Source of the DNA: Funiculus sociatus GB2-C1
Lineage (GTDB): Bacteria; Cyanobacteriota; Cyanobacteriia; Cyanobacteriales; FACHB-T130
DNA length: 64,000 bases
Assembly: GCF_039962115.1 (NCBI RefSeq)
Contig: NZ_JAMPKJ010000023.1
Location: forward strand, 1 to 64,000
Reading direction: 5' to 3'
Shown: in pieces, positions 36,922 to 38,424 of the stretch
Position numbering within the stretch: position 1 is the stretch's first letter
Layout: every line of letters starts with the position of its first letter
Notes under the pieces: generated by a model
What the model was told of the DNA's origin: nothing
The model's database searches: none
What the model saw: the letters and a program-made list of their open reading frames with translations, nothing else
Program-made: the position numbers and the translations under genes

Positions 36922-37092
36922 GGGGATACGGCGCTTCAAAAATAAAACTGCCCTACAGCAAAACCACTGTAGAGCAAGAGGACAGTTAAACGCTTTCTTT
37001 AGTTTCCGGAAATTTCGCACCCAGCGACTTATCCTTTGTGACGGTATTTACAGTGTCCATTGTCGGCTGAATAGAGTCCGCGTGTTTGTTTG

Positions 37093-37515
37093 CTAAATCA
37101 GCTGGTTTAACAATACCCCTAGACTAAACCCGGTCATCGATACAATGGCGATAATCCAAAACGATTGCGTTCCACTGAAGCCAGCAGTCTGGAGGTCTAG
37201 TCTGGTTAATGCTCCTGCTGAGAGTAGAACAAGAATATGAGCAAAAAAACTAAACCATGTCATGATGAAAACTCCGGCTAAAGCACTTGCAATCACGCAG
37301 AGGAAAGCTCTGGTGTCGGAGTTCATCCACTGGGAGAAAAAGGCTCTCAGGAGTGTTAGCGGAGCGGTTAAAAGCAAAGCAATGAGTATGACTAAAGCTG
37401 TTTCAATCAGCCAAAAATTCCAAGAGAATTTAGAGGAAAACAACCAGCCGAATACGCTATATGTAACCAGAAGCAGTGCCAGAGTTGCCCAAGGCAATTT
37501 CTTCAGGAAAGACAT
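37093..37515 (-). CDS. Four-helix integral membrane protein, unknown
   Basis: The 140-residue protein has four membrane helices (about 9-27, 33-58, 70-96 and 115-138) joined by short loops. SQWMNSDTRAFLCVIASALAGVFIM is the most polar-containing stretch. I do not recognise a named family, though similar small membrane proteins are common in cyanobacteria. It faces the TPR-like gene tail to tail with a 171-bp spacer that shows no strong terminator. Confidence 0.72.
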   Translation of the reverse strand: MSFLKKLPWATLALLLVTYSVFGWLFSSKFSWNFWLIETALVILIALLLTAPLTLLRAFFSQWMNSDTRAFLCVIASALAGVFIMTWFSFFAHILVLLSAGALTRLDLQTAGFSGTQSFWIIAIVSMTGFSLGVLLNQLI

Positions 37516-37640
37516 TCATTAGTGGCGCTCATTTTAGCGACGGATTTGTTTAACACGATCATTACACTGAAATGGTAAACTTTCGGCATTTTTTTCAGAA
37601 TTTTTATAGGCTGGCGAGGACGCCTTGTGAGTTATTTTCT

Positions 37641-37658
37641 TCTGTGATTAGGATCACA
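37641..37658 (+). promoter_or_regulatory. Predicted CRP/SYCRP1 binding site
   Basis: The palindrome CTGTGATTAGGATCACAG contains the exact consensus TGTGA-N6-TCACA, flanked by a matching C and G. In Synechocystis, SYCRP1 binds this type of site and controls pilus and motility genes. The centre lies about 64 bp before the predicted start of the candidate small RNA at 37714, close to the class I spacing of CRP activation. The divergent gene at 37093-37515 starts 126 bp away and is the alternative target. Confidence 0.65.
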
Positions 37659-37713
37659 GGAAAGGATGATCGATATCGTCTTCAACAAGTTCCTGAATGG
37701 GCATACTAAGAGA

Positions 37714-37791
37714 CGACTGAACTCTAGCCGAGTCATCAATAGGGAACACACGACCAGCCGACAGGTTCTGTAGAGGGACTGTCGGTTTTTT
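37714..37791 (+). ncRNA. Candidate small RNA with own promoter and terminator
   Basis: There is a -10-like box CATACT at 37702-37707, no good -35, and a CRP consensus site upstream. A transcript starting near 37714 would carry a small stem (ACTC/GAGT at about 37721-37733) and an open region AATAGGGAACACACGACC, and would end in a textbook terminator. No open frame fits inside. It lies in a 423-bp spacer between a membrane protein gene and apcD, both on the other strand, so the terminator has no other obvious transcript to serve. I do not recognise it as Yfr1, PsrR1 or another named RNA. Confidence 0.5.
37758..37791 (+). terminator. Strong intrinsic terminator on plus strand
   Basis: Perfect 7-bp stem CCGACAG/CTGTCGG with a 14-base loop, followed directly by TTTTTT. 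No plus-strand coding gene ends upstream of it. Confidence 0.85.
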
Positions 37792-37938
37792 GTTTGTAAT
37801 TTTAGCAATCCAGATTAGCAATCGAGGCGATAGGGAATTCTGGGAATGGGCAACTTTTTATCGCCTATCACCAGAATTACCTATCGCCTCCCTACTACGC
37901 TTGTCGCCTACTTGGGCTAAGGGCTAAAAACGCTAGAA

Positions 37939-38424
37939 TTAAGACATGGCTTGAATGATGTAATCAAAGTAGGGAGCAGCAGCGATCGCATCTTCCTCTC
38001 CCAATAAGTCAAGAGATGCTTTTTTCAAGCAACGGATTGACTCAACCATGCCTGGAACAGGCACGCCGAGGGAGTTATACATTTCCCGCACACCAATCAA
38101 ACCAATTTTTTCAATCGGTTCTTTATCACCCGCAAGAACTCCGTAGGTGATTAGACGCAAGTACCAGCCATAATCGCGCAGGCATAGCGCCCGTTGGCGC
38201 TCCCCGTAAGCATTACCGCCAGGGGCGATAAAGTCAGGGCGTTTCTGCCAGAGTTGCTTGCTGGCTTCTTGAACAATTTTTTTCTCATTTTCGGCTAGCG
38301 TGGCAGCAATCCGCGTCCGCTGTAGCCCAGTTTCCAAAAATTCTTTGATGCTCTTGAGTTCGCCGCTGCTGGGATAACGCAGTTCGTCGTCGGCTTTAAG
38401 AATAACTTGGCTTATTACACTCAT
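37939..38424 (-). CDS. apcD: Allophycocyanin-B alpha subunit
   Basis: The 161-residue protein is a phycobiliprotein of the phycobilisome core. The start ATG at 38424 gives [18 protein letters not shown], the standard ApcD opening; the frame runs on to 38478, but those 18 residues do not belong. Cys81 in [13 protein letters not shown] binds phycocyanobilin. The sequence ([18 protein letters not shown] and the ending [11 protein letters not shown]) is ApcD rather than ApcA or ApcB. ApcD is a far-red terminal emitter that passes energy, mainly to photosystem I and in state transitions. As is usual for apcD, it lies outside the apcABC operon. Confidence 0.95.

Follow-up and report, generated by a model that had tools for sequence, protein, structure and literature searches.

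Why should a perfect recognition palindrome for the cAMP receptor protein (CRP) and a Rho-independent terminator lie together between two cyanobacterial genes that are both encoded on the opposite strand? In the window (the whole 64-kb stretch of DNA analysed), the divergent membrane-protein gene at 37093-37515, the nearest gene on its side, and the convergent apcD-like phycobilisome gene at 37939-38424 are indeed both on the minus strand, as the first-pass annotation had it. The terminator that it placed at 37758-37791 on the plus strand was likewise found there: its arms CCGACAG (37758-37764) and CTGTCGG (37779-37785) are followed by six T residues at 37786-37791, the T run lying on the plus-strand side only, and the structure goes unlisted by a simple terminator scanner because that scanner allows loops of 3-8 only. 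The terminator sets the end of a putative gene of ~78 nt (37714-37791, plus strand) with a predicted start, within which no open reading frame of at least 30 amino acids both starts (with ATG, GTG or TTG) and ends, in agreement with the earlier description of a stretch without a coding frame. The palindrome, TGTGATTAGGATCACA, is perfect as claimed, but it occupies 37643-37658 and is thus two bases shorter than the 37641-37658 first given; it lies on the plus strand with its centre at about -63.5 relative to the predicted start. The answer that we favour is that 37643-37791 probably encodes a trans-acting regulatory small RNA (sRNA) of ~78 nt, which would be switched on by cAMP-CRP and pair with mRNAs.

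The convergent neighbour belongs to PF00502 (E 5.9e-65), and the closest NCBIfam model to its product is ApcA, below the cut-off (214.6 vs 270 bits); the gene name apcD for 37939-38424 is taken over from the first-pass annotation. Between the sRNA terminator and the stop codon of this gene there is a long imperfect inverted repeat (37824-37890), which matches itself on the opposite strand at 75%, gives weak, chance-like Rfam matches and is possibly a 3' hairpin of the apcD-like mRNA.

How much weight can the palindrome bear by itself? TGTGATTAGGATCACA is the sole zero-mismatch CRP palindrome in the 64 kb, and when the window was shuffled with dinucleotides preserved, 4 of 100 shuffles contained a perfect one; genome-wide, 5 places match perfectly versus 4 in the reversed control. 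Since there is no genome-wide excess, the palindrome alone is weak evidence, and it is conservation that carries the case. CRP-like matches with one or two mismatches are also about as frequent in the window as chance predicts (29 vs 26.5 expected). A palindrome with one mismatch, TGTGACGGTATTTACA, is found at 37037-37052, immediately beyond the membrane-protein gene at its 3' end.

The sRNA was found in all six searched genomes of the family, the source genome included. Of 195 genomes searched in the order, 42 gave a match at E<=0.1, and in 36 the match reached E<=1e-4. When 386 genomes of the phylum were searched with a covariance model (R1) built from a 30-sequence alignment, 51 matched at E<=0.01, of which 48 were kept as strong; two matches (G448, which has neither palindrome nor terminator, and G449) were dropped as chance, and the third (G303) is a decayed copy. 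A pattern scan of named contigs yielded at least 116 stretches with the sRNA, and the genera among the matches listed include Nostoc, Anabaena, Calothrix, Fischerella, Scytonema, Tolypothrix, Microseira and Coleofasciculus, besides others; no plasmid or phage copies were detected at E<=1e-5. The most conserved parts of the RNA include the 5' hairpin UGA(A)CUC-UAGCC-GAGUCA (37718-37735), AGGGAACACA, and the unpaired stretch AUCAAUAGGGAACACAC (37735-37751), which is among the most conserved columns of the alignment and is proposed as the pairing region. The stem of the hairpin is fixed in the close set, where its pairs vary so little that covariation support is absent, and in distant copies the loop and the outer stem are altered with the hairpin still able to form. 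The fold of the single copy at 37714-37791 is not unusually stable (z -0.78). The terminator stem is kept throughout the 30-sequence alignment, and the locus presents, at the level of sequence, a conserved non-coding element ended by a Rho-independent terminator. Loss of the stem and the palindrome from close relatives had been named beforehand as an outcome that would count against the idea; both are retained there, jointly with the spacing, the -10 box, the RNA and the terminator.

Could such a conserved transcript encode a small protein instead? Some conserved short cyanobacterial transcripts do, as described for ncl0160 (PMC4734099), and yet for this one the notion has next to no probability: besides the missing frame of at least 30 residues, two of the frames are closed within the conserved core, one by CTC TAG and the other by TGA, and in the 30-sequence alignment the terminator loop varies in length irrespective of triplets.

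The conservation that carries the case is seen in the promoter, which was compared among 167 distinct sRNA copies (distinct sequences, not independent lineages; copies with less than 110 nt upstream or an altered GGAACAC core were left out) by counting matches to the eight key bases GTGA/TCAC. The palindrome described above, hereafter site 1, has at least 7 of the 8 key bases in 162 of the 167 copies, and its start precedes the -10 box (predicted in the window as CATACT at 37702-37707, plus strand, and aligned in relatives as CATAAT in 87/167 and CATACT in 29/167) by 59 bp in 139 of these, by 60 bp in 19 and by 58, 61 or 62 bp in the other 4. The remaining 5 copies carry 7-8 of the 8 bases 22 bp closer, at what we call site 2; a consensus site spaced from the -10 box as a CRP-activated sRNA would need it is thus found in 162/167 copies at the one position and 5/167 at the other, and no copy among the 167 has neither. 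In the window, site 2 (GATGATCGATATCGTC, 37665-37680, plus strand, centre at about -41.5) is degenerate, as it is in most copies (7-8 key bases in 8/167), and yet its start stands 37 bp upstream of the -10 box in almost all 167, and its TGA and TC are retained in 98-100% of them. Mean matches out of eight amount to 7.77 at site 1 and 5.26 at site 2, as against 3.05-3.75 at 13 other registers. In two genomes (G331 and G425) both palindromes are canonical, at a spacing of 22 bp; four loci (L202, L204, L207 and L208) have the proximal site only, and three Nostoc-type loci (L192, L195 and L197) show, by eye, more similar repeats upstream. Sites that shift with CRP control maintained are the pattern expected from selection for CRP control. 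In separate counts, the exact 8-base site is present in 26 of 30 copies, and over 80 of the at least 116 contig loci (94 copies, one with too little upstream sequence) it lies 71-75 nt before the pattern start in 88 of 93 copies; in 4 others the sole exact site is at 95 nt, and the last has a one-mismatch site. The first-pass reading of a CRP-type site upstream of an orphan sRNA gains its support from this joint conservation and fixed spacing.

What kind of CRP promoter would this be? The spacing had been said to fit class I activation. A site at about -63.5 is there as described, but the promoter is not simply class I, given the weaker site at a class II position (37665-37680), the sole position that one family employs. 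Because the two are 22 bp apart, CRP dimers bound to them would face the same side of the DNA, and the promoter looks tandem, with a strong site 1 and a weaker CRP-like site 2. Viewed as a candidate class III (tandem) promoter, it has the 22-bp spacing and the class II register conserved, with both sites canonical in few copies and a start that is predicted. The CRP regulons predicted for cyanobacteria use the same consensus, TGTGAN6TCACA, with the -10 box ~22 bp downstream of the site according to the main text of that study (PMC2633013), as compared with 21 bp between the end of site 2 and the -10 box here.

With 14 HTH_Crp_2 family matches in the source genome, 12 of them above cut-off, it is conceivable that the promoter answers another Crp/Fnr activator, such as NtcA or one of the AnCrpB type. 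We regard this as quite unlikely. The regulator P0001 (G000:C13:5729-6484), which matches solved CRP-family structures, is the CRP ortholog of this genome, and among the candidates it is singled out by its recognition helix RETVTRV, which we take to resemble that of Escherichia coli CRP (a reading by eye). At E<=1e-70, CRP orthologs occur in 109 of 386 genomes of the phylum, and they accompany the sRNA in 47 of the 48 genomes that have it versus 62 of the 338 others, numbers that are uncorrected for phylogeny. Moreover, the sites read GTGA-N6-TCAC, in contrast to the GTA-N8-TAC described for NtcA (PMC3898017). Of the 62 CRP-bearing genomes that have no strong sRNA match among the 386, 38 were put to a second model (R2) together with G448, which has no ortholog at 1e-70; none of these 39 gave a convincing match, and the two weak ones were in G338 (E 0.006) and G059 (E 0.055).

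Control by CRP would also call for cAMP, and with 20 cyclase-domain matches and a gene above the NCBIfam cut-off for 3',5'-cAMP phosphodiesterase, the source genome likely has a working cAMP system. Another of its perfect CRP palindromes (L371, G000:C67:14182-14197) lies ~220 bp before the cAMP phosphodiesterase gene, a position that suggests feedback on cAMP.

Does the element belong to one of its neighbours rather than to a gene of its own? An apcD-like gene was found by direct search at 128 of 165 sRNA loci, the window included, and among 161 loci (many of them short, and some genomes entered twice) an apcD-like protein, 75-93% identical, is the downstream convergent minus-strand neighbour in 116 and an RlmD-type gene adjoins in 105. 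One might accordingly take the element for a cis part of the convergent apcD-like transcript, be it a 3' end, an antisense or a terminator. This explanation is very improbable, however, as 37 of the 165 loci have no apcD-like match; seven 8-kb stretches (L202, L204, L205, L207, L208, L209 and L210) keep the sRNA and a CRP site where the apcD-like gene is absent, and most loci from outside the order are without apcD. The orientation argues against it as well, with the T run following the hairpin on the plus strand only and the promoter conservation pointing the opposite way. On the other flank, the first-pass annotation had allowed that the palindrome might serve the divergent membrane-protein gene, in which case the terminator would be unrelated; the site does lie ~135 bp before that start codon. 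The suggestion does not hold up and is barely credible, since a homolog of this gene occurs at only 18 of the 165 loci, and it is the distance from the site to the RNA that is fixed. An sRNA gene with its own promoter is further indicated by seven named contigs (loci L050, L074, L075, L080, L087, L118 and L151) on which 3-5 sRNA copies stand in tandem, spaced 180-474 bp, every copy having its own exact CRP site; such arrays may represent dosage amplification of a regulatory RNA.

How would the sRNA work? We propose that a rise in cAMP would bring CRP dimers to the strong site at about -63.5 and the weaker one at about -41.5, on the same helix face, and that the bound CRP would draw RNA polymerase to the -10 box. 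The resulting transcript would present AUCAAYAGGGAACACAC unpaired between the 5' hairpin and the terminator, and this stretch would then base-pair with target mRNAs. The main rival for this last step holds that the sRNA is real and CRP-controlled but binds a protein, for example via its GGGA stretch, rather than mRNAs. There is a precedent in McaS, which is described as binding CsrA through GGA motifs (PMC4098024), and the extreme conservation across hairpin and single strand together would suit it, as would the finding that pairing predictions are no better than those for shuffled seeds; with one such motif only per RNA, protein binding is nevertheless fairly improbable. The pairing predictions come from one genome, G326, in which 2402 predicted start regions (2.4 of 2.5 Mb) were scanned; the best duplex of the sRNA seed was surpassed there by that of 10 of 14 shuffled seeds; because shuffled seeds did as well or better, we name no target. 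As a candidate target, apcD itself was set aside: its duplexes were on average 0.86 kcal/mol better than those of shuffles, but the control neighbour rumA reached 1.2. The complement 12-mer TTCCCTGTTGAT had 80 matches versus 28 for its reversed control among 33 sRNA-bearing genomes, with base composition uncontrolled, and we draw nothing from this difference.

The mRNA-pairing sRNA that we favour has relatives in logic among known systems. No Rfam family matches it at gathering score, and at E<=5 matches appear solely at 37802-37910 on the minus strand, scoring well short of gathering, with none on the sRNA. CyaR (RyeE) of enterobacteria is described as an sRNA that is activated by CRP-cAMP and binds Hfq (PMC4098024), and the RNA at hand would resemble it in being short and non-coding, in having a promoter to itself and in its proposed activation by CRP-cAMP. 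The resemblance is one of logic and not of sequence: unlike CyaR, the present sRNA has no Rfam match, belongs to another phylum, sits on the apcD side and has up to two CRP sites and tandem gene copies. The scan that predicted cyanobacterial CRP regulons covered protein-coding units, in contrast to this sRNA, and its main text contains none of the terms apcD, purL and non-coding (PMC2633013). In Nostoc sp. PCC 7120, 327 sRNAs were predicted (Table S3 of PMC4734099), and the conserved ones that the article describes share with ours an intergenic start, a Rho-independent terminator and conservation across cyanobacteria; we found no CRP-linked one named there, and Table S3 may contain this locus without a name. 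The Yfr1 motif CACUCCUCACACC, as given in that article, is absent from 37714-37791. Two further cyanobacterial RNAs are set apart by their descriptions only: NsiR1, which is likewise encoded in tandem repeats, depends on HetR, unlike an sRNA with a CRP-type promoter, and ApcZ, which is likewise tied to allophycocyanin genes, derives from an mRNA 3' end (PMC8136909) instead of a CRP-type promoter of its own. In the open-licence PMC literature, taken as articles without supplements, we found no description of a CRP-controlled sRNA in cyanobacteria, and five literal strings of the sRNA occur in no paper's full text there.

Cyclic AMP is a long-known second messenger in cyanobacteria, and a near-invariant sRNA gene with CRP sites suggests that it acts there through a regulatory RNA. 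In Anabaena, red and far-red light, nitrogen starvation and rehydration are described as affecting the cAMP level (PMC4284465). The CRP regulons predicted for cyanobacteria are reported to be highly diversified between lineages (PMC2633013), and the same CRP promoter on one RNA in many families would offer a conserved and easily measured read-out of cAMP-CRP. Post-transcriptional cAMP control in a photosynthetic phylum would become testable through a single locus of ~150 bp. A wider and decidedly speculative idea, which we would not yet bet on, is that the family is a principal and ancient output of cAMP, predating the heterocyst-forming lineage, kept next to an allophycocyanin gene, amplified to 3-5 copies in some lineages and decaying where either partner is lost, and that it converts cAMP changes driven by light or nutrients into post-transcriptional control over a conserved set of mRNAs.

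Two genomes sharing the genus label g73 differ in what is left of the circuit. In G268, the one of the 48 sRNA-bearing genomes that lacks a CRP ortholog at E<=1e-70, CRP is reduced to a remnant of 95 residues containing a stop codon, and the sRNA and the palindrome persist; in G303, CRP is intact and the sRNA decayed; together they form a natural pair for studying the loss of the circuit.
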